NCBI RefSeq assembly: GCF_963677005.1
Contig: NZ_OY781616.1
Span: 813,501-877,500, forward strand
Reading direction: 5' to 3'
Source: Maridesulfovibrio sp.
GTDB lineage: Bacteria; Desulfobacterota; Desulfovibrionia; Desulfovibrionales; Desulfovibrionaceae
Length of the DNA: 64,000 nucleotides
Position numbers and translations under genes: made by a program. Of this stretch, positions 12,776-48,259 are shown one piece after another (position 1 is the stretch's first letter; each line of letters begins with the position of its first letter). The notes below the pieces were generated by a model that ran no database searches, was not told the DNA's origin, and saw only the letters and a program-made list of their open reading frames with translations.

Positions 12776-13867
12776 TTATTCTTCTATAACATCGATGAGT
12801 TTACCGAGAACCAGTGGTGTATTGAAATTTTCGAGCACTTTTTTTCTTCCGTTTGTGCCCATTTCCGTTCTCAATTCAGCATTCAGTATAAGTTTTTCCA
12901 GCGCGACGGCCAGTTTTTCGGAGTCTTTTGGAGGCACGAGAATGCCGGTTTTGTTGTCGCTTACAACTTCGGGATTGGAGCTTATGTTGAATCCGACTAT
13001 TGGTTTTCGCAGGGTCATGGCTTCTACAAGGGCATAGCCGAATCCTTCCCAGAGAGATGGCAGGCAGAAAATATGCTGTGAAGCGTGAAATGATTTCATG
13101 TTTTCCACGAAACCGAGAAATTTTACGACATTGCTCACGCCCAGTTTTGCGGCGTAATCTTTTAATTCACCTTCCATTTCACCTTTTCCGGCAATCAGGA
13201 TTTTGAAATTAAGGTTCTTTTCTTTGAGAATTTTTGCGGCTTCAAGGAGATATTTCTGTCCTTTCTGCGCTGTAAGCCGGGCCGCATTTCCTATCACTAT
13301 TTCATTTTCAAGCGGTGTATATAGCTGTTCAAAAGGTTGGGAATCGAATTCGGATACATCGAATCCGTTGTAGATCAGGCGGATTTTTGCCTCGTCAATC
13401 AGGTCGGGATTGTTGGCCAGGACTGTCCTTTTTGTTTCAAGGGAGTTCACGATAAGCCGGTCTGCAATGTTGGAAAATACGTAGCGGTTAAGGGCGCTGT
13501 TTTTTACCGGAACGGCTATTCCGCGGCGATAGATGATCCGCTTGACTCCGGCTCTTTTTGCGGCGAAGCCGCCGCTTTTGAGGTCGGATGGCAGGGCGGT
13601 TATCAGGGTTTCAATGCGGTTTTCACGGAAAAATGATTTCAGGCGCTGCATCAGGAACGGATTGAGAAAGGATAGATTGCCGATGCGTTCACTGTGAAGT
13701 GTTATTCCGGGTTCGTTCTGCAGTCTTTGATACAATTCCGAGCGGTTGTTGGTTACCACAAAGACTTTGTATCCTTTGTCCCGCAGCAGCAGGGAAAAAT
13801 GATGATTCCATTTTTCCCCGCCGCCCCAGGCTTTATTGCTGTTGAAGAAGCATATGTTTTTATTCAC
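12776..13867 (-). CDS. GT4-family glycosyltransferase
   Basis: The 363-aa product is a two-Rossmann-domain (GT-B) retaining glycosyltransferase. The N-terminal domain opens with NICFFNSNKAWGGGEKW, typical of acceptor-binding halves with a glycine-rich loop. The C-terminal domain has GNAARLTAQKGQKYLLEAA and the E-x7-E-type donor motif in PSLWEGFGYALVEAM. It could act on lipopolysaccharide core or another envelope glycan; substrate cannot be told. The GTG at 13867 overlaps the end of the upstream acyl-CoA synthetase by eight bases (its TAA ends at 13860), so the pair is translationally coupled; a longer frame to 14182 is only overlap. Confidence 0.88.
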   Translation of the reverse strand: MNKNICFFNSNKAWGGGEKWNHHFSLLLRDKGYKVFVVTNNRSELYQRLQNEPGITLHSERIGNLSFLNPFLMQRLKSFFRENRIETLITALPSDLKSGGFAAKRAGVKRIIYRRGIAVPVKNSALNRYVFSNIADRLIVNSLETKRTVLANNPDLIDEAKIRLIYNGFDVSEFDSQPFEQLYTPLENEIVIGNAARLTAQKGQKYLLEAAKILKEKNLNFKILIAGKGEMEGELKDYAAKLGVSNVVKFLGFVENMKSFHASQHIFCLPSLWEGFGYALVEAMTLRKPIVGFNISSNPEVVSDNKTGILVPPKDSEKLAVALEKLILNAELRTEMGTNGRKKVLENFNTPLVLGKLIDVIEE

Positions 13868-15956
13868 GTAGTTTGAGTCCGAGTGCGTCTGCAGTGAGCT
13901 GTGGTATGGATTCCAGGCTTGGGCAGACGGTAAATCCGGCCTTGCGCATTTTTTCGAGCTTGCCTTGAACCCCGGTTCCTTCCTTGAGGATTGCCCCCGC
14001 ATGGCCCAGACGTTTGCCCGGAGGCGCCGTCTGACCAGCAATAAAGGAAAGTACGGGTTTGTCAAACCCTGTTTCGATAACGTAATCGGCCAGATCCTGT
14101 TCCGCTGTTCCGCCGATTTCGCCGAGAACCATGACGGCCTTGGTTTCATCGTGGTTGCGCAGCATTTCGAATATGTCGGCAAAGGTGGTTCCGATGTAGG
14201 AGTCTCCGCCGATGCCGATGGAAAGCGATTGTCCGATGCCTACCTGATTGAGCCGATCGGCTACTTCATAGGTCAGCGTTCCGGAGCGGGAGAGCACGGC
14301 AACCGGTCCGGGCGAAAAGGGAGTGGTGGGCAGAATGCCTATCTTGGTCTGCCCCGGAACTATGAGCCCCGGAGTGTTGGGCCCGATTATGCGCGATTTG
14401 CCGCCTTTGACCTGCTCCAGCACATTGAGCATGGCCGACTGGACTATTCCTTCGGTTATGCAGACCACCCATGGAATTTCGCATGAAGTTGCTTCCAGAA
14501 TGGCATCCGTGGCCAGTTTTGGGGGAACGAAAATTATGCTGGCTCCTATTTCATGATGCAGCTGAGCTTCCTTGATGCTGTTGTAGACCGGTACACCGAG
14601 GACTTCCTGCCCGCCTTTGAAGGGCGTTACGCCGGCTACTATGTTTGATCCGTATTCAAGCATGAGTCTGGTGTGCAGCCTGCCTTCCTGTCCTGTTATG
14701 CCCTGCACCAGAATTGGCGTATCCTTGTTTATACCGAAGGTGTGCGGTGATTTGTAACCGACATCTGCGGGTTTGAAGTCCGGGGTGGCGGCAATGGGGG
14801 CCGGAAATTCTATTTTCGGCGCGTTTTCGGGCTTAAGGGAGGCCAGCATGTCGAGGGCTTCCTGCATGTTTCTGGCTCTGTAAAGACTGTTGCCCTTGAT
14901 TTCCTTGAGTACCGCAAGGCCTTCTTCCGCGCTGTTGCCGGACATGCGGACCACAATGGGCTTTTCCGGTTCCTTGCCTCCAAGGGCGGCCACTAGGGCA
15001 CGGGCGACGAGTTCGCAGGAAAGGATACCCCCGAAAAGGTTGATCAGGATGGCTTTTACCTGCCTGTCATCGAAAAGAAGCCGCAGGGCGGTTTCAATCC
15101 GTTTCTGGTCGGCAGCACCTCCAAGGTCGAGAAAGTTGGCCGCCGGAAGGCCGGAAAAGTTGAGGGCGTCCATGGAGGCCATGGCCAGACCGGCGCCGTT
15201 GGCAATGAGACCGACCCAGCCTTTGAGGGAAACAAAGCTCATGCCTGCATCGCGGGCTATGTTTTCAACCGGGGTGGAGTGCTCCGGCTGATAGTATTTT
15301 TCATAGGCGGGATTGAGGTCGACGATGTTGTCGTCCATTTCTATTTTACCGTCCAGGGCAAGGAGCTTGCCGTATCCGGTAAGGGCCAGGGGGTTTATTT
15401 CCGCCAGCAGCAGCCCGTAATCAATCATGGTTCTGTACAGATTGCGTACAATGGTGCTGAAATCCACGAAAAGTTCTTTGGCAAGGCCGATGTGAAAAAA
15501 GGCGGCGCGTATCTGGTTCGGCTGCAAACCTCCGGGCAGGCTGATTTCCTGTATGAGCAGGTTTTCCGGGCCCATGTTTTCTATTTCCATGCCGCCTTCG
15601 CGTCCGACGGTCATGATTACTTTGCGGCGCTGGCGGGAAAGAGTCAGGGAGAGGTAGAACTCCTTGCGGATATCGATTGCAGGTTCGGCTCGCAGAAAGG
15701 GGACCTTGTTGCCTTTGATCTCCATTTCCAGAATCTGGCGGGCTGCTTTTTCATATTCCTCTCTGGTATCCACTTTCCGGATTCCTCCGGCCTTGCCTCT
15801 TCCTCCTACGGGAACCTGCGCCTTGAGTATCCACGGCAACGGGAAGTATGGTTCCAGACCGGGCAGGTCATCGATGGTGATTTTCACTCCCGTGGGAACC
15901 GGAAGCCCGGCAGCCTCTTTGAGCAGCGTCTTACTAAGATGTTCGTTGAGCAGCAT
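13860..15956 (-). CDS. Fused succinyl-CoA synthetase-like (beta-alpha) acyl-CoA ligase
   Basis: The N-terminal about 390 residues match the SucC beta subunit (ATP-grasp MLLNEHLSKTLL, KAQVPVGGRGKAGG, EINPLAL and the NLFGGI loop). The C-terminal about 300 match SucD (GITGQEGRLHT, GPNTPGLI, and the phosphohistidine motif PGKRLGHAGAIL). SucCD and NDP-forming acyl-CoA synthetases interconvert acyl-CoA, NDP and phosphate with acid, CoA and NTP. Here both subunits are one 698-aa chain in beta-alpha order, so the acid substrate cannot be assumed to be succinate. ATG at 15956 follows a GGAGGGAG site; the extra N-terminal frame to 16025 is rejected. It is the first gene of a pair with the glycosyltransferase. 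Confidence 0.88.
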   Translation of the reverse strand: MLLNEHLSKTLLKEAAGLPVPTGVKITIDDLPGLEPYFPLPWILKAQVPVGGRGKAGGIRKVDTREEYEKAARQILEMEIKGNKVPFLRAEPAIDIRKEFYLSLTLSRQRRKVIMTVGREGGMEIENMGPENLLIQEISLPGGLQPNQIRAAFFHIGLAKELFVDFSTIVRNLYRTMIDYGLLLAEINPLALTGYGKLLALDGKIEMDDNIVDLNPAYEKYYQPEHSTPVENIARDAGMSFVSLKGWVGLIANGAGLAMASMDALNFSGLPAANFLDLGGAADQKRIETALRLLFDDRQVKAILINLFGGILSCELVARALVAALGGKEPEKPIVVRMSGNSAEEGLAVLKEIKGNSLYRARNMQEALDMLASLKPENAPKIEFPAPIAATPDFKPADVGYKSPHTFGINKDTPILVQGITGQEGRLHTRLMLEYGSNIVAGVTPFKGGQEVLGVPVYNSIKEAQLHHEIGASIIFVPPKLATDAILEATSCEIPWVVCITEGIVQSAMLNVLEQVKGGKSRIIGPNTPGLIVPGQTKIGILPTTPFSPGPVAVLSRSGTLTYEVADRLNQVGIGQSLSIGIGGDSYIGTTFADIFEMLRNHDETKAVMVLGEIGGTAEQDLADYVIETGFDKPVLSFIAGQTAPPGKRLGHAGAILKEGTGVQGKLEKMRKAGFTVCPSLESIPQLTADALGLKLRE

Positions 15957-16269
15957 ACTCCCTCCGATATGTCTACAGTTGAATTTTGTGACAATCACCG
16001 GCGGAAACTTCTGGATTGTCCTCAAAAAGTACGGTTAAATGAGCAGGTGGTTTAACGCATCGTAATGTTTGAGTTATCGTTGTAGTTCTGTTTTCCGATG
16101 ATACTTGTGCCCATAGCATATAATTCAATTATATGGCACTCTCAAGCTCAATTGACGAATTAATCCCCTGAACCTGCTTCTGTTTTTTTGCGGGAAGTAC
16201 GTTACACGGCGGGATAAAACAAATATTTTTCAGTAAATAATTTTTTATCTGATGATTTCAGGAAATATT
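15957..16269. promoter_or_regulatory. Divergent promoter region with a 19-bp palindrome
   Basis: This region separates two divergently transcribed genes. At 16117-16135 catataattcaattatatg is a perfect palindrome (nine bases each side of a central c), which could be an operator for a dimeric regulator or simply an AT-rich promoter element. No ORF is supported. Confidence 0.45.
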
Positions 16270-17043
16270 ATGGCAGATTTTAAAGAATTTTCCGACGCTT
16301 TGACGGATGAAGTGCTGAACGATATGGCGGAATCATATTTCGGAGCACGTGTAGATGTGGATAAGGCTCTGGAATATTTTCATGATGTCTCCGAACGGCT
16401 CCACACAAAGTTGTACAGGGTCTACAGGGCCTGCGTGCTGCTGGAAAAGGTCTGCCTCGGCCGTTCGGGCTTCGATGATTTCTGGCTGTCCGCCGGGATC
16501 AACCGTGAGGTTTTCCATTATCCGGCAGGCGTTGAATGCGCAGCGCTGATGACTGGTCCGGCCATGTCGCTCACCTCGAAGGGGGAGTATGTAAAATGGT
16601 TTACCATAGCGTATGAAATGGTTGCGGAACGGGTGGCCGAATACATGCACGGATCTTTCAAGGACGATGGAACAGGGCGCAAGGTTCGCAGTTCCAATCG
16701 CGAGGATTTTTTCCGTATGGCGGATGAAATCAACTTGAAGATTGAGAAGGTGAACAGAAATGTTACTGCTTCGGACGTGCTTAATTTTACCAAGTCCCTT
16801 GATCCCGAGGGGATGAGAAAGGAGAATATTGCAGGGTGCGTAGGCCCGCAGTGCAAAGACATAGATGATGAGATGGCTTTCACCCTGATTGCGATCAAGG
16901 ACATAGATTTCCCGGAATTCCCGGACCTTCCCGGAAGAAAGGAAATTTCATCCTATATTTCCGAGTTCTGTTCCGAGAATTATGCAAAAGACAAAGTGCG
17001 GGTAAAGGCTCTGATCAAAGAATTGAAATCCGAACTGAGGTAG
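16270..17043 (+). CDS. Uncharacterised cytoplasmic protein (257 aa)
   Basis: I do not recognise a family. The protein is soluble and mostly helical by appearance, with no signal peptide or membrane segment. It has a central WFTIAYEMVAERVAEYMHGSF segment and two cysteines in GCVGPQCKD. I chose the ATG at 16270, which follows a CAGGAA site six bases away, rather than the frame opening at 16252. The next gene, encoding a small exported protein, starts nine bases after its stop, so the two form an operon and may act together. It is divergent from the fused acyl-CoA synthetase. Confidence 0.8.
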   Translation: MADFKEFSDALTDEVLNDMAESYFGARVDVDKALEYFHDVSERLHTKLYRVYRACVLLEKVCLGRSGFDDFWLSAGINREVFHYPAGVECAALMTGPAMSLTSKGEYVKWFTIAYEMVAERVAEYMHGSFKDDGTGRKVRSSNREDFFRMADEINLKIEKVNRNVTASDVLNFTKSLDPEGMRKENIAGCVGPQCKDIDDEMAFTLIAIKDIDFPEFPDLPGRKEISSYISEFCSENYAKDKVRVKALIKELKSELR

Positions 17044-17052
17044 GGCGTTGTG

Positions 17053-17541
17053 ATGAAAAAATCCGTTAGAATCTTTTTTGTGCTGGTTTTGGTGCTCTGC
17101 GCGGTCTCTGCCGTTTACGCTCAGGATAAGAAGAGTGCCCCGGAAGCCAAGGCAAAGCCTGAAGTTGCCGCATCCGAGCCGGCGGCAAAAGAGGCCGGGG
17201 TCCCGGTCTTAGTAGAGCACTCGGGCAATGACGAGCTTGGCGGGACTCTTGCCTTGAAGTTAAAGGAGAACTTTAGGAAATCGGTTTTGTTCAAGCTGGC
17301 TGATAAAAATGCCAAGGCCGTGCACGTAAAGGTTGTTTCGCGCAGTGAGTTCAGCGAACGTCCTGAAATAGGATCGGTTTACGCAGTTGTCTGGACTTTT
17401 GCGGAAAGTCAGGATGTAGTCCCTTTTTATCTTTCCGAAGAATTGGGACTCGTGGCTCCGGCAAATGTGGAGAGCAGGGCGGCGGGGCTCATGAATCTTA
17501 CGGACAGGATTGCGCAGGATTACAAATATCTATTTGAGTAG
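17053..17541 (+). CDS. Small exported protein of unknown function
   Basis: The 162-aa product starts with a clear signal peptide (KKSVRIFFVLVLVLCAVS), probably cleaved after AVYA, followed by an Ala/Lys/Glu/Pro-rich low-complexity linker to about residue 48. The mature C-terminal part of about 110 residues (VPVLVEHSGNDELGGTLALK onward) looks like a small alpha/beta domain resembling periplasmic DUF-type proteins, but I cannot name it. There is no lipobox. A GTG three bases earlier is an alternative start. It follows the uncharacterised gene by nine bases and overlaps the convergent CCA-type nucleotidyltransferase by 12 bases at the 3' end. Confidence 0.75.
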   Translation: MKKSVRIFFVLVLVLCAVSAVYAQDKKSAPEAKAKPEVAASEPAAKEAGVPVLVEHSGNDELGGTLALKLKENFRKSVLFKLADKNAKAVHVKVVSRSEFSERPEIGSVYAVVWTFAESQDVVPFYLSEELGLVAPANVESRAAGLMNLTDRIAQDYKYLFE

Positions 17542-18705
17542 ATTCTGCCAGTTGCGCCCTCTGGTCAGGCTTTTGAGCCTGGACGCTCTCAGGGTGCGAA
17601 GTTTTTCGCCTGATTTTTCTCCCAGATTTCTGTCTTTGAGCGGCAGGGATACCTTGAGTATCTCTGCCAGATCATCGCGGGCGGATGCCAATACATCCGC
17701 GTTCCGGTCTGCCCGGCACAGCTCGCACATGTTTTCAAGCAGGCCGCTTACATGCAGCTTCATCAGCAGATCCACCCGTGTTCCGGGGCGCAGTTCCCGG
17801 TAGTTCCCGGCTTTCATATGCAGTTGTGCGGCTGTTTCTCCGGCCCGGATGAATCTGGTCGGCAGCAGCAGTCTTTTTCCCAGTTCAACCGCCGGAGATG
17901 CCCCTGCCTTGTCGTGTCCGTGGTGGGAAGGTAGATGTTCCGCCGGGGTCAGCATCTTACCGAGGTCATGACACATGGCCATCCAGCAGGTCAGCGGATT
18001 TCCGGCAGTCAGGTCCATGATTTCTGCGGTGTGTCCGGCGACTGATTTATCGTGGTATTGTTCGGGCCCGGCAGGTATGCTGTCCGCTTTTTCAAGCTCC
18101 GGGAACCAGTATGCTAGACAGCCGGTTTTTATCAGCAGCCGCAGAAAGTTGCCCGGTTTTGCCCCTCCGAGTCCTTTGCGCAACTCAACGCCCACGCGGT
18201 CCGGGGCAATATTTTTTATCCAGCCGGATTTAGCCGCTTCCGCCATGCCGTGCAGTAATTCCGCATGAGCTGAAAACTCCGGAAATCGGGCAAGAAAGGT
18301 CGCTGCCCGGAATACCCTTAGCGGGTCGTCCCTGAAACTCTCCCGGAAGCCGGGACGAAGTTTCCTGTTCATGAGATCTTCGAGAGCATTAGGGTGGGTA
18401 TACAGTTCTCCGTTTTCGTCAAGGGCCATGCTGTTTACGGTAAAGTCCCTCGCGCCCAGATCCAGATCAACCGTTTCCTCAATATTTCTGCCTGTTTTTC
18501 TGGGAAGAGAAAACTCCAGCCCTTTCAGAAAAAAAATCTCATGTGATTTTCCCACAGGTCGGGCTTCTGGAAATTCAGCCATGAAATCCTTAGCTGATCC
18601 TGAAGCGATGAGCATGTCCATATCTTTGGGGACCCTGCCTATGAGCATGTCTCTGACGGTTCCACCGACAATCATTATTTTTATTTTTTTACGGGAAGTT
18701 ACCAT
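17530..18705 (-). CDS. tRNA nucleotidyltransferase/poly(A) polymerase-family protein with HD domain
   Basis: Class II nucleotidyltransferases add CCA (or CC, or A) to tRNA 3' ends or poly(A) tails to RNA. The N-terminal motif A is VGGTVRDMLIGRVPKDMDMLI, with the flexible-loop region, motif B ARDFTVNSMAL and motif C DDPLRVFRAATFLARF. The centre has an HD phosphohydrolase domain (MCHDLGKM, then HHGHDKAG), as in bacterial CCA enzymes with 2',3'-cyclic phosphatase activity. The amino-acid template EDxxR region cannot be judged by eye. 391 aa. A second, larger enzyme of this superfamily is at 56311, so the CC- and A-adding steps may be divided. Confidence 0.88.
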   Translation of the reverse strand: MVTSRKKIKIMIVGGTVRDMLIGRVPKDMDMLIASGSAKDFMAEFPEARPVGKSHEIFFLKGLEFSLPRKTGRNIEETVDLDLGARDFTVNSMALDENGELYTHPNALEDLMNRKLRPGFRESFRDDPLRVFRAATFLARFPEFSAHAELLHGMAEAAKSGWIKNIAPDRVGVELRKGLGGAKPGNFLRLLIKTGCLAYWFPELEKADSIPAGPEQYHDKSVAGHTAEIMDLTAGNPLTCWMAMCHDLGKMLTPAEHLPSHHGHDKAGASPAVELGKRLLLPTRFIRAGETAAQLHMKAGNYRELRPGTRVDLLMKLHVSGLLENMCELCRADRNADVLASARDDLAEILKVSLPLKDRNLGEKSGEKLRTLRASRLKSLTRGRNWQNLLK

Positions 18706-18785
18706 GTTGTTTCTTTAGGGTTTATTCAGTAATAATGCTAAGCTCCGCTCTTGCTATATTTACCGTTAATGATATCTTGAACGCA

Positions 18786-19466
18786 ATGAAAAATAAAATA
18801 TTGCTCTTGGTCCTTATCGGGGTGGTGGTTGCACTTTTTTTCTATTTTGATCTGGATAGAATTTTCACCTTGGAATACCTGAAAAGTTCCAGGCAGGACT
18901 TTCAATTGTTTTATGCTGAAAACCCCGCACCTACCGTGCTGGGCTTTTTTGTGCTCTACGTGATTGTTGTAGGGCTGAGTCTGCCGGGGGCAACAGTTCT
19001 CGGGCTGGCGGCAGGGGCGCTTTTCGGATTTTGGGCCGGTGTGGTTATAATTTCTTTTGCCAGTTCTCTAGGTGCTCTTATCGCCTGTTTTTTTTCACGT
19101 TATCTTTTCAGGGAATATGTGCAGAGGAAATTCGGCGACAGGCTGGAAAGAGTGAACCGTGGCATTGCTGAGGAAGGAGCATTCTACCTGTTCTGCATGC
19201 GGCTTATTCCGGCAATTCCCTTTGTGGTAATCAATCTGGTCATGGGCTTGACCTCAATGAGGCTCAGAACATTTTATTGGGTATCTCAGGTCGGTATGTT
19301 GCCAGGAACCATGGTTTACGTGAATGCGGGCAAGGAACTGGGAAAAATAGATTCCCTCTCCGGGATAGTTCAGCCCGGACTCATCGCCGCGTTCGTTCTT
19401 TTGGGCATTTTTCCTCTGGTGGTGCGCAAGGCTGTTTCTTTTGTCAAAGCCCGCAGAAATGTGTAA
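18786..19466 (+). CDS. TVP38/TMEM64-family membrane protein
   Basis: This 226-aa integral membrane protein belongs to the VTT (SNARE-associated, DedA-like) superfamily, whose members act as lipid scramblases or in polyprenyl-phosphate or phospholipid handling. It has an N-terminal helix (ILLLVLIGVVVALFFYF), the conserved re-entrant region GLSLPGATVLGLAAGALFGFWAGVV, then RLIPAIPFVVINLVMGL and a C-terminal helix. The F/P-x-P and G-x-x-x-G patterns are conserved. I use the ATG at 18786, since the frame upstream to 18735 adds only a short unlikely tail. It is divergent from the nucleotidyltransferase and precedes the CNB pair. Confidence 0.85.
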   Translation: MKNKILLLVLIGVVVALFFYFDLDRIFTLEYLKSSRQDFQLFYAENPAPTVLGFFVLYVIVVGLSLPGATVLGLAAGALFGFWAGVVIISFASSLGALIACFFSRYLFREYVQRKFGDRLERVNRGIAEEGAFYLFCMRLIPAIPFVVINLVMGLTSMRLRTFYWVSQVGMLPGTMVYVNAGKELGKIDSLSGIVQPGLIAAFVLLGIFPLVVRKAVSFVKARRNV

Positions 19467-19512
19467 GGTCTTTCAAGCAATTTCAAAAAATCAATAAATA
19501 CAAAAAGTAGTT

Positions 19513-20688
19513 ATGATTCCAAGAACTTCACCCAGTATTCGCACTTTTCACAAAGGCAAACTCATTTTTGCGGAAGGGCAGGAAAGCAAGGTCGCCTACA
19601 TGATCAAGGCGGGAACAGTGGATATTTTCCGTAAGCTGGAGAACAAGAAAACAGTTCTCGCCACTTTGCGCAGGGGAGATATCTTCGGGGAAATGGCTTT
19701 GCTTACGGACCAGAAACGGACGGCCTATGCCGAGGCATCAAGTTTCTGTGAGCTTGTAGTGCTTACCGAAGAAATGATGAACAAGCTTCTTAATTCTTCA
19801 CCCGGAACAGTAAAGAAAATTGTCGAGCTGCTGGCCAAGCGGGTAGTGGCTACCGATGGCAAATCTTCCGGTTCCCAGCAGAGCGATTCGTTCATCTCCC
19901 TCGCCACCATGCTGAACCTTGCCTACAAGGAATACGCTTACACGCCCAAAAAACAGCAGGCCAAGATTGAAAATTACGCTTTGGGGCTGTCCGTGAAATC
20001 CTTTACCGAAACGGTTAAGGGATTGACCATGTTTTCAACCCTTGAGATCGATGCCTTTCTTGAAAATGTTTACAAGTTGAGGTTGATTGATTTGAAAACA
20101 CCAAAGAAGGGTGACAAGGGGGCATTTCTGGACAGGTATATTCAGATTGCGGATATCAATCAGTTCATGACGTCGCTGCATGGACTTTACAAGCAGATGA
20201 AAGAAATAGGTGCCAATGTCGAGTACCGTATGAATTATATGACCTTTTCAGATTTTGCCCAGAAAACCGGAACCCAGCCGGAATTGATTTATAAGAAAGT
20301 CATCAAGGAAGAGATGCCGGAAACCCTGCTCTTTTTCAATCGCGAAAAGGCCGTTGAGTGGAGCAAGGATAAGGATGAAAATTTCTTCAAGAAATTCAAG
20401 CGACCGCGTAAGGCCCTTGAGGATCTGGAAAATGTGGACGACCTTATCTACATAGACAATGCCACCCTTGCAGAAGCTTTGAAGGGACTGGATTTTTACA
20501 AGATTTCTGTTTTGTTTTCTGCCGGAGATGCCCAGAACAAGGAAAAGATCAAGCGCAATATCGGACGTAAAATGGCTACAATTCTTCTCAGCGAACCTCC
20601 CAGGGATCGCTCCATGTCCGATCCGGAAGTTCTTGAATGTTGTGATGAACTGCTTGATTCTGTTAGAAAACTCAAAGGTGCCAGCTAG
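19513..20688 (+). CDS. Cyclic-nucleotide-binding protein with FliG C-terminal-like domain (paralogue 1)
   Basis: Residues about 10-115 form a CNB domain with the phosphate-binding cassette FGEMALLTDQKRTAYAEA, keeping the Arg that contacts the cyclic nucleotide phosphate. The middle (about 120-300) is unrecognised and helical. The C-terminal part (about 305-388) lines up without gaps with the FliG C-terminal domain: I314-D315-N316 heads a helix, with an A-L-K-G-L-D segment and a RNIGRKMATILL stretch matching the RNMSQRAADIL part of E. coli FliG. FliG's torque-generating charged residues are not all kept (N and A replace D and R). 391 aa. The next gene is a paralogue nine bases away. Likely a cyclic-nucleotide-dependent regulator; role unknown. 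Confidence 0.8.
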   Translation: MIPRTSPSIRTFHKGKLIFAEGQESKVAYMIKAGTVDIFRKLENKKTVLATLRRGDIFGEMALLTDQKRTAYAEASSFCELVVLTEEMMNKLLNSSPGTVKKIVELLAKRVVATDGKSSGSQQSDSFISLATMLNLAYKEYAYTPKKQQAKIENYALGLSVKSFTETVKGLTMFSTLEIDAFLENVYKLRLIDLKTPKKGDKGAFLDRYIQIADINQFMTSLHGLYKQMKEIGANVEYRMNYMTFSDFAQKTGTQPELIYKKVIKEEMPETLLFFNREKAVEWSKDKDENFFKKFKRPRKALEDLENVDDLIYIDNATLAEALKGLDFYKISVLFSAGDAQNKEKIKRNIGRKMATILLSEPPRDRSMSDPEVLECCDELLDSVRKLKGAS

Positions 20689-20697
20689 GATGACGTT

Positions 20698-21861
20698 ATG
20701 GACAGACTTGCGCAGAGGAGAAAGGAAATGAGTCCCCAGAAACCTATGACCAAGACATACAACAAGGGGGACGTCATTTTCAGGGAAGGGGATAAAGGCA
20801 ATCTCGCTTTCATGATTCAGTCCGGAACAGTCAATATAATCAAGAATATAAACGGCAAGCAAAGCGTGCTGGCCACCTTGGGGCCCGGTGAAATATTCGG
20901 TGAAATGGCTATCATCTCCAAGGCTCCCAGAGTTGCCGGGGCCGAGGCTTCATCTGAATGTACGGTGATGGTTCTTACCGCCAAGCTGCTTCTTCTTCTG
21001 CTCAAGAAAAGTCATCCCACGGTTTTTCATCTGACAAGAATTCTGGCTTCGAGACTTGCGAGTTCAAACAGAACTGTTTCCGAAAACAGAAGTGATAACT
21101 CCTGGATGACATTCTGCCGTCTGCTGCATCTTAAGAACCGTATTGTGGAAACCAGTCCGCCGGATGTCCGGCCGCTGGGCATCAGTTACGAAGAGTTCTG
21201 CAAGGAACTGCTGGACATAACAAACATGCCCAAATCCGAGATAGACCGGTTTGTGAAAACTGCAACCGGTTTCAATATGATTCATATGACCAAGGTTGCC
21301 ACCCATCCTTACGTGAGCATTACCGATCCGGACAATTTTCTGGTCGTTGCCGAGAATATTTCCGGAGATATCAATAAATTCGGCGGGAAAGTCAGCCTCG
21401 CCGATTATATGGATATTGATGATTTTGCGGAGATGGTCGAGTCGAATCCGGAAATGATCTACAAGAAGGTCGGGGTAGGTGAGTTCCCGGAAGATATCTG
21501 CGTACTGCACAAGGATGCTTCATCCAAGTGGGCCGAGAAAAAGGGAGACCGTTATTTCAAGGAAGCCAAGCGCAAACGCAAGACCATCGACGAGCTGGAA
21601 GGTATCGAAGATATTGTCTTTGTGGATATCGGAACCCTCAAAGAAGTCTTTAAGCGGTTGGGATACTATAAACTGGGTATTTTGTTGGCCGTAGCTGAGG
21701 ATGATGCCAAAAAACGGATATTGATGTCCATTTCCAAGAAAATTGCCGCAGCGATAATGAAAGACGCAAAATCATCAGAAGCCATTAATCAAAGCGAAAT
21801 AGATGATGTTGAAGAAGAACTCATCGAGATGATCAGGGAGATCAAGTCCGGGGGAGAATAA
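20698..21861 (+). CDS. Cyclic-nucleotide-binding protein with FliG C-terminal-like domain (paralogue 2)
   Basis: This 387-aa protein is the tandem paralogue of the gene before it, with the same order: a CNB domain (motif FGEMAIISKAPRVAGAEA, Arg kept), an unrecognised middle and a C-terminal FliG_C-like region starting near V309-D310, with LGYYKLGILLAVAEDDAKKR and SISKKIAAAIM. The two proteins diverge in the centre. An alternative start at 20728 (MSPQ) has GAGGAGAAAGGAA upstream; the ATG at 20698 has AGGA at the stop of the upstream gene. Both are plausible. No flagellar motor gene is in the window. The paired layout suggests a heterodimer or two related outputs. Confidence 0.8.
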   Translation: MDRLAQRRKEMSPQKPMTKTYNKGDVIFREGDKGNLAFMIQSGTVNIIKNINGKQSVLATLGPGEIFGEMAIISKAPRVAGAEASSECTVMVLTAKLLLLLLKKSHPTVFHLTRILASRLASSNRTVSENRSDNSWMTFCRLLHLKNRIVETSPPDVRPLGISYEEFCKELLDITNMPKSEIDRFVKTATGFNMIHMTKVATHPYVSITDPDNFLVVAENISGDINKFGGKVSLADYMDIDDFAEMVESNPEMIYKKVGVGEFPEDICVLHKDASSKWAEKKGDRYFKEAKRKRKTIDELEGIEDIVFVDIGTLKEVFKRLGYYKLGILLAVAEDDAKKRILMSISKKIAAAIMKDAKSSEAINQSEIDDVEEELIEMIREIKSGGE

Positions 21862-21980
21862 CACCGTTACTGCTTGAAATGATATTTGATTATGTATACC
21901 GCTGTATAAATTTTTAAAATCGTGTATTATTGAATTGTCGAACTCTGTTTTTTTAAACATCTGCCACGGGATAATGAATC

Positions 21981-22904
21981 ATGATTACGAGAATTACGAT
22001 TATAAGCGGAAAAGAAGGCAGTCCTCTGCCCAAGACTTCTCCTGAACTGCTTTTTCAGGGACACCCCCTGTGGGCCCGAGACATTGAGAACTTCAGTCCC
22101 TGGAATATGGAAGATGCCGAGTACAGGACTTATTCCACATGGCTTTCAGGTTCCAGGACCGGGATACCTGTTGCCGTATGCGGCTCATGCGCTTCCGCTC
22201 TTGATGTGGCCTGGAGGCTCAACGCTCTGGAGGATCTTCCGGAATGGGGCAGCGTAATAGCAATGGAACAGAATACCGGACGCGGGCAGGTTCGCAGGGA
22301 ATGGATATCTCCTCCCGGCAATATCTACGGAACTGTCCGCTGGCCTGTACTGCCCATGGGTGAGCCTGGAGAACCCCGGCCGGTCTGGAATCGAATTCTG
22401 CCGTTGATCGTGGGCTATCTTACCTGCAAGGCCCTTGATGACATCGGAGTGAAAACTCAGCTCAAGTGGCCGAACGATATTCTTATTGATGGAACGAAGG
22501 TCGGCGGAATTCTTATTGAGGAACGCGGTGGAACGGTTATGGTCGGGATCGGCCTTAACCTTACTTACGCCCCGGAACGCGAACTGCTGCGACCTGATCA
22601 TGCTGTCCCGGCCGGTAAAATCAATACCGAGGAAATGCAGCTTGGTCCTCTTGAGACCTGGATCGAAATGATCAAGTATTTCCGCAGTCAGTTTGATTCC
22701 ATCGTCTCTTCACAGCACGCTGAAAATTTTATCTACGAACTTGCTGACCAGTTGGTCTGGTTCGGTGAGGAAGTCCGAATTGTTGACGGCCCGGACGGGC
22801 TTGAAAAGGGCGTAATCTGCGGCCTGCGTTCTGACGGCGGACTGGTTGTTGAGGCTGACGGAGAAAAACATACCGTTTATTCCGGGTCCGTAATGCCCCT
22901 TTAA
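21981..22904 (+). CDS. birA: Biotin--[biotin carboxyl carrier protein] ligase
   Basis: BirA makes biotinyl-AMP and transfers biotin to the carrier lysine of biotin-dependent carboxylases. The 307-aa protein carries the adenylation motif EQNTGRGQVRREW (Gly-Arg-Gly-x-x-Arg), GNIYGT and the KWPNDI/KVGGILIE segments, and a small C-terminal beta domain (VIDG/GLRSDG region). It lacks the N-terminal winged helix of E. coli BirA, so it is likely a monofunctional ligase and not a biotin repressor. The N-terminal about 60 residues are unusual and not part of the core. It lies 120 bases after the CNB pair and upstream of the PEP-synthase-like gene. Confidence 0.9.
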   Translation: MITRITIISGKEGSPLPKTSPELLFQGHPLWARDIENFSPWNMEDAEYRTYSTWLSGSRTGIPVAVCGSCASALDVAWRLNALEDLPEWGSVIAMEQNTGRGQVRREWISPPGNIYGTVRWPVLPMGEPGEPRPVWNRILPLIVGYLTCKALDDIGVKTQLKWPNDILIDGTKVGGILIEERGGTVMVGIGLNLTYAPERELLRPDHAVPAGKINTEEMQLGPLETWIEMIKYFRSQFDSIVSSQHAENFIYELADQLVWFGEEVRIVDGPDGLEKGVICGLRSDGGLVVEADGEKHTVYSGSVMPL

Positions 22905-23220
22905 AAAGCGACCTGTCCATTGTAAATCCTGTTTTTTCCTTGACATGCGAGCCATGCTGAGGAAATGGTCTTCTACAGGATAAGACTGCTTTCAGGCAGT
23001 CTTATCCTCTTCCCGGGAAGGGGAAGCGTTATCCGGAGTTCTTCCGGGATATCTTTTGGAAAGTCTTTTTTGTATGACCTCTGTTCTTTTTCCGGGCAGG
23101 GTGTTATTCCTATTTATCAACCACTCTTTAAATTTAGCTTGAATACGATATCCAGATTCAGAAGGACCGCCAGGTTTAAAGGTCCTGCTGCAACCTGTTA
23201 CGATGCGTAAGGAGGAAGCG
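22905..23220. promoter_or_regulatory. Leader region of the PEP-synthase-like gene with strong hairpins
   Basis: Bases 22977-22989 and 22996-23008 form a perfect 13-bp stem (aggataagactgc and its complement), immediately followed by the 12-bp palindrome cttcccgggaag at 23009-23020. TTGACA at 22938-22943 could be a -35 box, but no clear -10 lies at the right spacing. The stem may terminate birA or form part of the long 5' leader of the next gene. Confidence 0.5.
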
Positions 23221-26200
23221 ATGGCTGGGAAGACGGAAGAAACCGGCTCCGCCAAAAAAGCGGAAGCCGCAGCTCCCAAAAAGGCTCAGGCGAAGAAACA
23301 GCTTGAGAGTAAACTGGTTTTGACCGGTGCCGATATCGTTGCTATCGGCGAAGAGGCTGAGCTGCTGGTTGGCGGTAAGAACTACAACACCGCATTGATC
23401 AGTCAGGTAGAGGGTATAAGGTCTCCCCAGTTCAGGGCTGTCTCTTCTATAGCTTTTCATAAACTTCTGGATGAAACAAAAGTGCACGCCGGGGTTGTGC
23501 GCACTGTCGTGGACAGTGAATACAACGCAGTGGACTGGACCAGCGAAGAAGTAAACAGCGACAGTGAGTTTCTGCAGAAATTCGTTAGATCGATTGCCGA
23601 GGTTATTCGTGAAGAGGTCAGAAAGCATTCAGACGAAACCCAGATTCAGCTGCGGACATTCATTAATAACGTTGTTGAAGGCTTTGCAACTTCACCAGAA
23701 GGAATCGACCAACTGCGCAAGCGTTCCGTTCTGGTTCAGTGCGCGATCCTTTCCGTTGAACTGCCTGCCGAAGTGGAGGAAGCGGTTAAAAACGCCTACC
23801 TGTCCATCTGCAAGGATGCAGGGCTGGAAAACGAACCCGTGGCCGTGCGTTCCTCTGCCGCCGGTGAAGACAGTCGCAAGAAGGCTTTTGCCGGACTTCA
23901 GGATACCTACCTGAACATTGTCGGTGAGGACAACTGCGCAACGGCGTACCATTGGGATTGTGCTTCAGCATACAACCTGCGCAGCATGACCTACCGGCGT
24001 GAAGCTATTCTCGATGCGGTTACCCTTGCAGAGAATACCGGTGATACATCCATTGCGGAAAATGCCAAGATAGAGTGGGCTATTGAGAATACCTCGCTTT
24101 CTGTGTGCATAATGCGCATGATCAATCCGGTTATCTCGGGAACAGCTTTCAGTGCCGATACAGCTACCGGTTGTCGCGGAACCGAACGCAAGGACCTTGT
24201 CTCCATTGATGCGAGCTACGGACTGGGTGAAGCCGTTGTCGGCGGAATGGTTACTCCGGATAAATTTTACGTATTTCAGCGTGACGACGGCTCCGAGGTT
24301 GTTGTCCGCAATATGGGTTGCAAGGACAAGAAAATCGTCTACAGCGAAAAGGGCGGAACCAAGGTCGAGAAGGTTCAGTCCGGTGCCGTCTACCGCTGGG
24401 CGCTTTCCCTTGCGCAGGCTGAAGAAGTAGCCAAGGGTGTGCGCTCCATAAGCAGAGCTTATGGCGGCATGATTATGGATACTGAATTCTGCCTTGATGC
24501 TGCCGACAGACTCTGGTTTGTACAGGCCCGTCCTGAAACCCGCTGGAATGAAGAGTTCGAGCAGCATCCGCATTCCATTTTCATGCGCAGGCTTGAGGTT
24601 TCCCCGAAAGCTCTGTCTACCGCAGAAGTCCTTCTGGAAGGGAACGGAGCTTCACGCGGAGCCGGGCAGGGAACTGTCAAATATCTGCGTTCGGCTCTTG
24701 AACTGAACAAAGTTCACAAGGGTGACATTCTCGCTGCCGAGCGTACCGATCCGGATATGGTTCCGGGCATGCGTATCGCCGCAGGCATTCTTGCCGATGT
24801 TGGCGGAGATACCAGCCATGCTGCGATTACCTCCCGTGAGCTGGGAATCCCGGCAATTATCGGTATTCAGCGTCTTGAAATTCTGCGCTCCCTTGACGGA
24901 CAGGAAATAACCGTCGACGGTTCCCGCGGAAAGGTCTACCGCGGACTTCTGCCCCTCACCGAGGTTGGCGGAACCATTGATACCTCAAAGCTTCCCGCCA
25001 CCAAGACCAAAGTCGGGCTTATCCTTGCCGATGTGGGACAGTCGCTGTTCCTTTCCAGGCTCAGGGACGTTCCCGATTTCGAAGTGGGGCTGCTCCGTGC
25101 CGAGTTCATGCTTGGCAACGTCGGGGTGCATCCGCTTGCGCTTGAAGCATACGACAACGGTTCTCTGGATAGGCTGGTGCAGGACAAGCTGGATGAACTG
25201 GACGGACGCCTTACTGCGGTAATGAAATCGCAGCTTGATTCCGGCCTGATCACTCTCAACGTGAAATTAAGGGAATATGTCGGTGCCGTGACCGGTCTTA
25301 CCGAAGAAATGGATTCCCTTGCCAATGCCAACACTGCCCGCGGAACCGAAGAGGTTCTGGCCATGCACCGCAAGCTGAGGGAACTGGACAAGAAACTTGA
25401 CCACTACCTTGAGCATGCTACCGAAAGTCTTTACACCCTCAAAACTTCAGTCAAGGTTGAAGAACATGTGAGGGCTATAGTCGGAGTGCTGGCCGACGAA
25501 TATGCCGATTCAAAATTCATTTACAAGCGTTCTGAATCCATAGATGAACTTCCTGAAATTCTTGAAAAGGCAAAGAATAACCCCATTGTTCTGGAATACA
25601 TTGAGAAGATCAGGGCTTTGAGGGAAGAAGTCGCTCTTAAGATGGGGCTTAAGTCCGAAATGGACGAAGTCACAACTCTCAGGCAGCGCATTTCGGATAT
25701 AATCAGGTCCCGCGGACTGCGGACCGGTAAGGAAAACTACATTCAGACCCTTTCCCAGGGGTTGGCACTTTTTGCCATGGCCTTCTACGGAAAGGATATC
25801 GTGTACAGAACCACCGACTTCAAGACCAACGAGTATCACAACCTGCTCGGCGGATTGCTTTTCGAGCATCATGAAGACAACCCCATGCTCGGATATCGCG
25901 GTGTTTCCAGAAACGTGCACGACTGGGAACTGGAAGCCTTTAAACTGGCTCGCGGGGTATTCGGCGGTAAGAATCTGCATATTATGCTGCCTTTTGTCCG
26001 GACCATTGAAGAAGCGCGCAGCATGAAGCGCTACCTGTCTCAGGTACACAATCTTGAATCCGGCAAGGACGGTCTTAAACTGATCCTCATGGCCGAAATT
26101 CCAAGCAACGCAATTCTCAGCAAGGAATTCATCAGGGAAGTGGACGGGTTCTCCATCGGTTCCAATGACATGACTCAGCTGGTTCTCGGAACCGACCGTG

Positions 26201-26802
26201 ATAACTCCGCCCTGCAGCATATATATGATGAAGAGGACCCGGCAGTTGTCTGGGCTATCCTTTCCGCTATCTTTACCGGACAGAAATTCGGTAAAAAGAT
26301 CGGTTTCTGCGGTCAGGGAGTCTCCAACAGCGTGATTCTGCGCGGAGTAGTCTGCATAGCAGGCATTGTTTCGGCTTCCGTTGTGCCGGATACCTACCTG
26401 CAGACCAAGCTGGATATGGCTGCCGTGGAAGCTGAAAACATCAAAGTCAGTGAGCTTGGGCAGTGGATACGCGCCCGCCATTTCGAGCGTCTGGCTTCGC
26501 TGATGGAAGATAACGGATACAGCCACATCATCAAGAAGTACAAGACTCCCGAAGATCTCGAAGACTGGTACGAAGGTGAAATAAGAAGGCTCAACGAGCA
26601 GCTTCGCGACAATATTGATACCCCCAAGGAACAATTCTACCGTCAGGAGATGGACACCTTCCGGGGAACATTCCACAAGCCGGTCATTTACTCGGCCTGG
26701 AACTGGAGCAGAACGGTTGAAGATGCAATGCACCATGCCGGTTTTGCTACCTTCGAAGAGCAGGAAGCCGCCCTTCAGGAACAGCGCACAAAGAACTGGT
26801 AA
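23221..26802 (+). CDS. Enlarged phosphoenolpyruvate synthase-like protein
   Basis: PEP synthase converts pyruvate, ATP and water to PEP, AMP and phosphate. Visible are an ATP-grasp-like N-terminal region (PVAVRSSAAGEDS, SASYGLGEAVVGG), the swivelling phosphohistidine domain (GGDTSHAAITSRELGIPAI, His533) and the C-terminal TIM barrel with the active Cys (GFCGQGVSN, Cys1030). The length of 1193 aa exceeds E. coli PpsA (792, His421 and Cys751); the His-Cys span is 497 residues instead of about 330, because of a Glu/Lys/Leu-rich, probably coiled-coil insertion roughly at residues 660-880. The first 30 residues are Lys/Ala-rich and low complexity. The strong TAAGGAGGAAGCG site before 23221 fixes the start. 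Substrate unproven. Confidence 0.85.
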   Translation: MAGKTEETGSAKKAEAAAPKKAQAKKQLESKLVLTGADIVAIGEEAELLVGGKNYNTALISQVEGIRSPQFRAVSSIAFHKLLDETKVHAGVVRTVVDSEYNAVDWTSEEVNSDSEFLQKFVRSIAEVIREEVRKHSDETQIQLRTFINNVVEGFATSPEGIDQLRKRSVLVQCAILSVELPAEVEEAVKNAYLSICKDAGLENEPVAVRSSAAGEDSRKKAFAGLQDTYLNIVGEDNCATAYHWDCASAYNLRSMTYRREAILDAVTLAENTGDTSIAENAKIEWAIENTSLSVCIMRMINPVISGTAFSADTATGCRGTERKDLVSIDASYGLGEAVVGGMVTPDKFYVFQRDDGSEVVVRNMGCKDKKIVYSEKGGTKVEKVQSGAVYRWALSLAQAEEVAKGVRSISRAYGGMIMDTEFCLDAADRLWFVQARPETRWNEEFEQHPHSIFMRRLEVSPKALSTAEVLLEGNGASRGAGQGTVKYLRSALELNKVHKGDILAAERTDPDMVPGMRIAAGILADVGGDTSHAAITSRELGIPAIIGIQRLEILRSLDGQEITVDGSRGKVYRGLLPLTEVGGTIDTSKLPATKTKVGLILADVGQSLFLSRLRDVPDFEVGLLRAEFMLGNVGVHPLALEAYDNGSLDRLVQDKLDELDGRLTAVMKSQLDSGLITLNVKLREYVGAVTGLTEEMDSLANANTARGTEEVLAMHRKLRELDKKLDHYLEHATESLYTLKTSVKVEEHVRAIVGVLADEYADSKFIYKRSESIDELPEILEKAKNNPIVLEYIEKIRALREEVALKMGLKSEMDEVTTLRQRISDIIRSRGLRTGKENYIQTLSQGLALFAMAFYGKDIVYRTTDFKTNEYHNLLGGLLFEHHEDNPMLGYRGVSRNVHDWELEAFKLARGVFGGKNLHIMLPFVRTIEEARSMKRYLSQVHNLESGKDGLKLILMAEIPSNAILSKEFIREVDGFSIGSNDMTQLVLGTDRDNSALQHIYDEEDPAVVWAILSAIFTGQKFGKKIGFCGQGVSNSVILRGVVCIAGIVSASVVPDTYLQTKLDMAAVEAENIKVSELGQWIRARHFERLASLMEDNGYSHIIKKYKTPEDLEDWYEGEIRRLNEQLRDNIDTPKEQFYRQEMDTFRGTFHKPVIYSAWNWSRTVEDAMHHAGFATFEEQEAALQEQRTKNW

Positions 26803-47306: not shown

Positions 47307-47393
47307 GCCGAGGTGGTGGAATTGGTAGACACGCTGTCTTGAGGGGGCAGTGGAAGAAATTCCGTGGGGGTTCGAATCCCCCCCTCGGCACCA
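47307..47393 (+). tRNA. tRNA-Leu (GAG), copy 1
   Basis: The 87-nt gene folds as a class II tRNA: acceptor GCCGAGG/CCTCGGC, D-arm GTGGAATTGGTAGACAC, anticodon stem CTGTC/GGCAG with loop TTGAGGG (anticodon GAG), a long variable arm, T-arm GGGGGTTCGAATCCCCC and an encoded CCA. It reads CUC and CUU Leu codons. Identical to copies 2 and 3. Confidence 0.95.
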
Positions 47394-47527
47394 TCTGAAT
47401 AAGAGGGTGCTTTCGAAAGAAAAAACCTAAATATTATGAGCGATTATTTGCAAAAAAAGCTTGCAAATAAGTTTAAAGATCGTTACAAACTTCCTCGTTG
47501 AGACGTTCTTTGAACACAACACCTCAA

Positions 47528-47614
47528 GCCGAGGTGGTGGAATTGGTAGACACGCTGTCTTGAGGGGGCAGTGGAAGAAATTCCGTGGGGGTTCGAATCC
47601 CCCCCTCGGCACCA
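47528..47614 (+). tRNA. tRNA-Leu (GAG), copy 2
   Basis: Same 87-nt sequence as copy 1, with CCA encoded. The upstream flank (CTTCCTCGTTGAGACGTTCTTT...CACCTCAA) and the downstream terminator are shared with copy 3, showing a duplicated unit. Confidence 0.95.
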
Positions 47615-47624
47615 CGCAACAGAG

Positions 47625-47660
47625 AAAAGGGTTGAAGTTTAGACTTCAACCCTTTTTTTA
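47625..47660 (+). terminator. Terminator after tRNA-Leu copy 2
   Basis: The stem aaaagggttgaagttt / acttcaaccctttttttt ends with a T-run just after the tRNA. It is the twin of the one at 48270. Confidence 0.85.
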
Positions 47661-47662
47661 TC

Positions 47663-48172
47663 TGGCTATTTCCTTTACTTCGCAAAAATGCATTTAAGGC
47701 ATTTGAAGGGATTCCAAAGTGGATTATCTATCTCTGCTATCCATATCCCTAAGGCTTGAAGCGAGCTTCCTACTGGGCCTTTGGCTGACAGCAGCGAATT
47801 CCGGTTATAAACGCTTCAAATCAAATTGTCAGTTCCCATCATCAATCTGAAATTTGAAAGGTGAGCATTCTGTTTCGTTTTCTGCATAGCAGATAGCCTG
47901 CGTATTGTGACTTGGCCTAAGAATACATAAGCAGCTAATCGTGGAGCGGATTTGCGGTAATGCGCCATGATCCGATTTAAAGCCCGGAGAGCTTCTGCAG
48001 CAGCTTTGTGATGCAGGGCTGAGTATCAGTTTTTCAGGCTGCCAAACACGGCGATTTCATTCGTAAAAAGCAGTTAAAAATAAATTTAAATTATTTCAAA
48101 AAACATCTTGCAAACCTCCGCCAAGACTTGTAAACACTTCTTCACCGAGACGTTCTTTGCAGAACACCTCAG
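47663..48172. other. Unexplained spacer between tRNA-Leu copies 2 and 3 with an eroded frame
   Basis: Most of this 510-base stretch has no gene. Bases 47707-47730 look like a worn fragment of repeat family A (gggattccaaagtggatt). A 66-codon minus-strand frame from about 48020 to 47816 (HKAAAEALRALNRIMAHYRK, then SAPRLAAYVFLGQVTIRR) has no start codon and ends in TGA; its sequence is coding-like and faintly resembles part of an IS256-type transposase. I do not call it a gene. Confidence 0.35.
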
Positions 48173-48259
48173 GCCGAGGTGGTGGAATTGGTAGACACGC
48201 TGTCTTGAGGGGGCAGTGGAAGAAATTCCGTGGGGGTTCGAATCCCCCCCTCGGCACCA
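48173..48259 (+). tRNA. tRNA-Leu (GAG), copy 3
   Basis: Identical 87-nt gene to copies 1 and 2, with encoded CCA. A GAGACGTTCTTTGCAGAACACCTCA upstream segment and the following terminator match copy 2. Confidence 0.95.

Follow-up and report, generated by a model that had tools for sequence, protein, structure and literature searches.

Both MotI (also called DgrA) in Bacillus subtilis and YcgR in E. coli carry a PilZ domain. As far as the accessible sections of PMC12713396 and PMC10140304 go, they are cyclic di-GMP (c-di-GMP) proteins acting on MotA or on the contact between MotA and FliG, and a likeness to them is predicted for the proteins treated here. A second-messenger protein that likewise addresses one stator type of several is described for FlgZ-MotCD-SadC of Pseudomonas aeruginosa, again with c-di-GMP and, in the accessible part of that description, without a FliG_C part (PMC9039648). 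The stretch of 64,000 nucleotides from Maridesulfovibrio sp. analysed here, termed the window, encodes two co-directional proteins (protein 1 at 19513..20688, protein 2 at 20698..21861, both on the + strand) that combine an N-terminal cyclic-nucleotide-binding (CNB) domain with a C-terminal part resembling FliG_C. Whereas stator control by second messengers is exerted by c-di-GMP proteins in the accessible text of the cited papers, the CNB-FliG_C proteins pair a receptor of the cyclic AMP/cyclic GMP (cAMP/cGMP) kind with the rotor's own stator-facing domain, are in many relatives joined to a motAB pair of their own, and yielded no PilZ row at E<=1 in the Pfam scan of the window pair. We consider the chances about even that they are adaptors or clutches under cyclic-nucleotide control, which would bind through FliG_C to the MotA ring of a dedicated stator and thereby control whether this stator engages the rotor. 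By analogy they would work like MotI, YcgR or FlgZ, yet they do not belong to the PilZ kind, and they are not FliG. Tied by gene order to one stator, they are a candidate partner for it and make the role of that stator testable, and they offer a concrete molecule for how the state of the motor might pass to signalling.

Other described proteins share single parts of this architecture. The flagellar switch protein FliG differs in its N-terminal and middle parts: CNB-FliG_C proteins have no FliG_N or FliG_M over the cut-off, are changed at positions 264 and 297, and carry CNB and helix-turn-helix (HTH) parts instead. CRP/FNR regulators such as CAP and GlxR share the CNB domain, the C-helix and the winged helix, whereas CNB-FliG_C proteins add a second small helical domain (HTH2) and FliG_C and are encoded together with a stator. 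Bd2879 of Bdellovibrio (PDB 9SFA) also has a CNB domain followed by two winged-helix domains, with a profile match over CNB and the first of them (HTH1), but according to the accessible part of PMC12750041 its C-terminal region is predicted to be disordered and has a zinc-finger motif instead of FliG_C, and its cassette has no Arg (T65/S66). Literature searches turned up neither a CNB-FliG_C protein, nor a CNB gene linked to motAB, nor the control of a stator by a cAMP-like signal, an absence that is weak because only open-licence PMC papers were covered. The accessible parts of PMC9389320, PMC9039648, PMC5677366, PMC8846402 and PMC6768053 describe no such protein, and that of PMC13066512 lists cyclic-nucleotide genes from Leptospira and, separately from them, a protein with a FliG C-terminal domain, but no CNB-FliG_C.

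Domain composition of the CNB-FliG_C proteins

All features given in this section lie on the + strand. Protein 1 (391 aa) consists of CNB, winged helix, HTH2 and FliG_C and has no motAB alongside. The open reading frame (ORF) of protein 2 comprises 387 aa, but its true start is probably position 20728, which gives 377 aa, because most homologues begin at that Met, the database copy P0003 has 377 aa and AGGAG precedes the ATG. Measured against the curated Pfam cut-offs (PF00027, CNB, 27.5 bits; PF01706, FliG_C, 23.3 bits), the CNB domain is unequivocal in protein 1 (residues 10-95, 19540..19797, 71.9 bits) and in protein 2 (residues 19-104, 20752..21009, 78.2 bits). The phosphate-binding cassettes read FGE...RTA (19684..19734) and FGE...RVA (20896..20946), so that both proteins have its E and R; across our alignment of 57 members G and E are present in 57/57 and R in 56/57. 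The claim of a CNB domain with a GE...R.A cassette, made in an earlier sequence-only reading of the window, was correct for both proteins. The closest named relatives of the pair in a database search are Maridesulfovibrio proteins.

The FliG_C-like C-terminal part claimed by the same reading is confirmed overall. Protein 2 passes the cut-off with 34.8 bits (E 2.1e-8; C-terminal segment 21586..21858), and the orthologues of protein 1 in two genomes of the genus do so with 24.2 and 28.4 bits; protein 1 taken alone (residues 306-388, 20428..20676) does not. FliG_C is matched at E<=0.1 by 57/57 aligned members (best 6.5e-11). Since a Foldseek search with the whole model returned CNB proteins in the rows shown, the C-terminal half was predicted alone, and this prediction matches the FliG_C fold. 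A merely accidental resemblance of a helical bundle to FliG_C, for which the score of protein 1 and a best Foldseek E of only 1.8e-3 could be cited, was rejected, given the 57 matching members and the predicted fold, and we regard it as extremely improbable. Neither another fold nor sub-threshold scores in all homologues, which the sequence-only reading would have taken as a refutation, were observed: the predicted fold agrees, and 18/19 motA-linked copies pass the FliG_C cut-off.

In the Pfam scan of the window pair neither FliG_N nor FliG_M is matched at E<=1, and neither exceeds the cut-off among the 57 members, where FliG_N occurs weakly in 16 (best E 0.0046). With the whole-protein FliG model TIGR00207, protein 2 reaches 22.7 versus 226.7 bits over its C-terminal part only, and protein 1 has no row. 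A plain FliG paralogue was rejected, because no FliG_N or FliG_M part exceeds the cut-off. Between CNB and FliG_C, protein 2 harbors a CRP-like winged helix (HTH1, 21100..21321), found by profile and in the predicted fold, and the weakly MerR/HTH_17-like HTH2 (21412..21561).

Linkage to motA and a dedicated stator type

The distribution of the family was surveyed in 59 Desulfovibrionaceae genomes, and 20 of them contain a full-length member. A copy directly precedes motA in 19/20 carriers, overlapping it by 4 nt in 14 and by 1 nt in three, with gaps of 3 and 58 nt in the other two; in the remaining carrier (G014) the copy is divergent and its contig short. The genome of the window belongs to this pattern: apart from the pair it contains a third CNB-FliG_C gene, which shares 4 nt with the beginning of motA, and motB comes next (the names of MotB, of CheA/CheB and of neighbours without a Pfam match were read from translations). 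At least four more loci with a CNB-FliG_C gene before motA (L015, L016, L017, L023) are among the matches listed from a scan of named genomes, most of which are unrelated CNB proteins. The absence of any link to the motor was rejected for the family on the basis of this gene order.

In a search beyond Desulfovibrionaceae, a profile of HTH2 plus FliG_C run against 395 genomes of the phylum gave, among the matches listed, full-length matches only in Desulfovibrionaceae, and its partial matches led to three loci of another family (L168-L170), the first with FliG_C at 46.5 bits. Their CNB proteins (L168:3725-4939, L169:4891-6105, L170:5440-6690) lie beside genes read as CheA and CheB types. A relative from Poribacteria (L021) has FliG_C at 48.3 bits and motA 11 nt downstream. 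In Gammaproteobacteria, the class of L041, relatives at E<=1e-20 occur in 5/369 genomes; with 27.5 to 38.3 bits, 4/5 are over the threshold for FliG_C, and 4/5 precede a motA of the same orientation, at 41 nt (L041), close by (L207), at about 365 nt (L208/L211) or with a small CNB gene in between (L209/L213), while L210/L214 shows no motA within its 8.8 kb. In L208/L211 the adjoining upstream gene, which has the same orientation, codes for a protein of 740 aa that contains a class III cyclase domain (31.8 bits; cut-off 21.9). The gammaproteobacterial genome G688 contains more FliG_C domains, in two frames of 957 aa and one of 535 aa (G688:C77, G688:C244).

The MotA proteins encoded next to the family form a type of their own, which occurs at 61-100% identity in exactly the 19/59 genomes with a linked gene, whereas the next MotAs reach at most 39%. 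In the numbering of E. coli K-12 MotA and FliG, we take MotA R90 to pair with FliG D288/D289 and MotA E98 with FliG R281. The contact as such is electrostatic according to the accessible part of PMC9039648. Position 90 was checked in 24/28 linked loci (all but L015, L016, L017 and L023) and in 15 unlinked MotAs. All 24 linked proteins are without Arg, with S/A/T/G in Desulfovibrionaceae and L/M/I elsewhere, and E98 is kept in 23; the unlinked MotAs, four of them from the genome of the window, keep both R90 and E98 in 15/15 cases. An ordinary MotA with a chance neighbour was rejected, because this type never occurs without a CNB-FliG_C gene in the 59 genomes and differs at position 90. Seven MotA/ExbB-type genes (L119-L125) were recorded in the genome of the window, five of them interpreted as MotA genes that adjoin a MotB-like gene and two as other types.

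On the side of the putative adaptor, 23 linked FliG_C domains show K at 281 in 22, an acid at 288 in 22 and E at 289 in 21. Of the 33 charged positions in the FliG_C of the own genome, no more than seven have their charge preserved in 90% or more of the linked copies, and three of these seven are stator contacts. The codon of K348 in protein 2 (21739..21741, +) corresponds to the column of E. coli FliG R281, which is invariant in the 57 members.

A separate rotary device, in which the CNB-FliG_C protein itself would be driven or gripped by the MotA-MotB unit and this unit would have given up its service to the flagellar C-ring, would fit the distinct, R90-less MotA that is strictly bound to the family and the presence of other, R90-bearing MotAs in the same genome. 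We nevertheless judge it quite unlikely: E98 is retained, and canonical FliG, which was sought in 29 carrier genomes (leaving out L015, L017, L023, G069, G140, G338 and G452), is present in 29/29, whereas none of the six FliG-less genomes among the 59 has a member. This co-occurrence favours a flagellar task over a separate device. On the ligand side, the own genome encodes one CYTH protein and two cyclases of class III, of which one has a CHASE2 domain; class III cyclases are found in 20/20 carriers versus 19/39 other genomes.

Possible roles as stator adaptor or transcription factor, and the status of the window pair

The adaptor reading is based on the domain make-up, the gene order with motA-motB, the strict co-occurrence with one MotA type, the charges at FliG positions 281, 288 and 289 and a linked MotA that has lost R90 but retained E98. 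In it, the MotA ring of this stator would be the docking site of FliG_C, which would replace rotor FliG there or sit beside it, and a cyclic nucleotide (likely cAMP or cGMP) bound to the CNB part would turn docking on or off; the outcome would be a clutch or gate on the engagement of the stator with the flagellar rotor. The coupling of second-messenger sensing to a FliG-like surface, as proposed from the sequence alone, is supported by sequence, by the predicted fold and above all by the gene order of the relatives. Where that reading had named a regulator of the flagellar switch as one possibility, the stator protein MotA is favoured over the switch, because the retained domain is the MotA-facing one, FliG_N and FliG_M are nowhere over the cut-off and most motA-linked genes overlap motA.

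Several observations weigh against this adaptor. The classical contact set is incomplete, because the linked copies have lost K264 (22 of 23) or reversed position 297 (acidic in 20) and the linked MotA is without R90. Within the window pair only 281 (K) and 289 (E or D) of five stator-contact charges are kept, and 264, 288 and 297 are lost, so that the earlier statement that the torque charges are not conserved is right only in part: it applies to these three positions in the pair and to 264 and 297 in the linked relatives, and fails at 281 and 289 in both and at 288 in the linked copies. Protein 1 remains below the FliG_C cut-off with 17.0 bits against 23.3, and L041 has no Pfam FliG_C match despite its adjoining motA. 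The window pair itself has no motAB neighbour, nor do L022, the second copy of L101, L115, L168-L170 and L210. The co-occurrence with cyclases shrinks among genomes of at least 3 Mb to 19/19 versus 14/19 (p = 0.046, by a Fisher test that ignores kinship). Finally, the HTH domains suggest a DNA-linked role.

It is because of these HTH domains that a transcription factor tethered to the stator has to be considered, with a CRP-like body bound to DNA by its HTH domains and a FliG_C tail held or released by MotA, through which stator assembly or motor load would act on gene expression. The profile alignment covers CAP over almost its whole length, HTH included, the Foldseek alignment to proteins of the CRP type extends over about 200 columns, and Bd2879, which shares the first three domains, is called a putative transcription factor in the accessible part of PMC12750041; the HTH_17 match in L168 is weak (E 0.014, under the cut-off). 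We regard this alternative as rather doubtful. Somewhat less doubtful, and advanced here tentatively, is a private rotor piece: an R90-less MotA ring with its own FliG_C on a cAMP/cGMP receptor with HTH domains may unite motor state and cyclic-nucleotide signal in one molecule, with stator gating or gene expression as output. This module recurs in Poribacteria and Gammaproteobacteria as well as in Desulfovibrionaceae.

The most plausible view of the window pair is that of additional proteins serving the same stator in trans, or of proteins already diverted to another use. In the first case the two paralogues, which may form a heterodimer, would act through a contact surface that is already eroded in part. 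In the second, FliG_C would have been turned after duplication to another protein contact, leaving only the motA-linked paralogue to act on the stator. The phylogenetic tree, in which proteins 1 and 2 each form a fully supported clade of their own apart from the motA-linked copies (the joining of the clades is not settled), the distance from motAB and the greater loss of contact charges would agree with such a departure. It is nonetheless unlikely in our view, given K281 and the acid at 289 in both proteins, the FliG_C score of protein 2 and the unchanged location of the pair in the two other genomes of the genus that were compared.

Of the loci compared, those from these two genomes (L095 and L096) show the gene order around the window pair again: a gene with a VTT domain, the genes of proteins 1 and 2, biotin ligase and a PEP-synthase-like gene. 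That no flagellar gene is nearby is true for the nine ORFs scanned at 13860-26802, but not for the paralogue joined to motA-motB elsewhere in the genome. FliG_C is found at E<=0.001 in four places of the own genome: the genuine FliG, protein 2, the third CNB-FliG_C gene and a second unusual carrier of this domain, with 817 aa. This last protein (L117:7026-9479) has FliG_C at 77.7 bits in two stretches and no other domain over the cut-off, and it lies beside a row of other genes. Elsewhere in the window, a 721-aa protein (13860-16025) with ATP-grasp, CoA-ligase and CoA-binding domains resembles a fused enzyme of the succinyl-CoA-ligase type, and three copies of tRNA-Leu(GAG), identical in all 87 bases, are located inside 1 kb (47307-48259).
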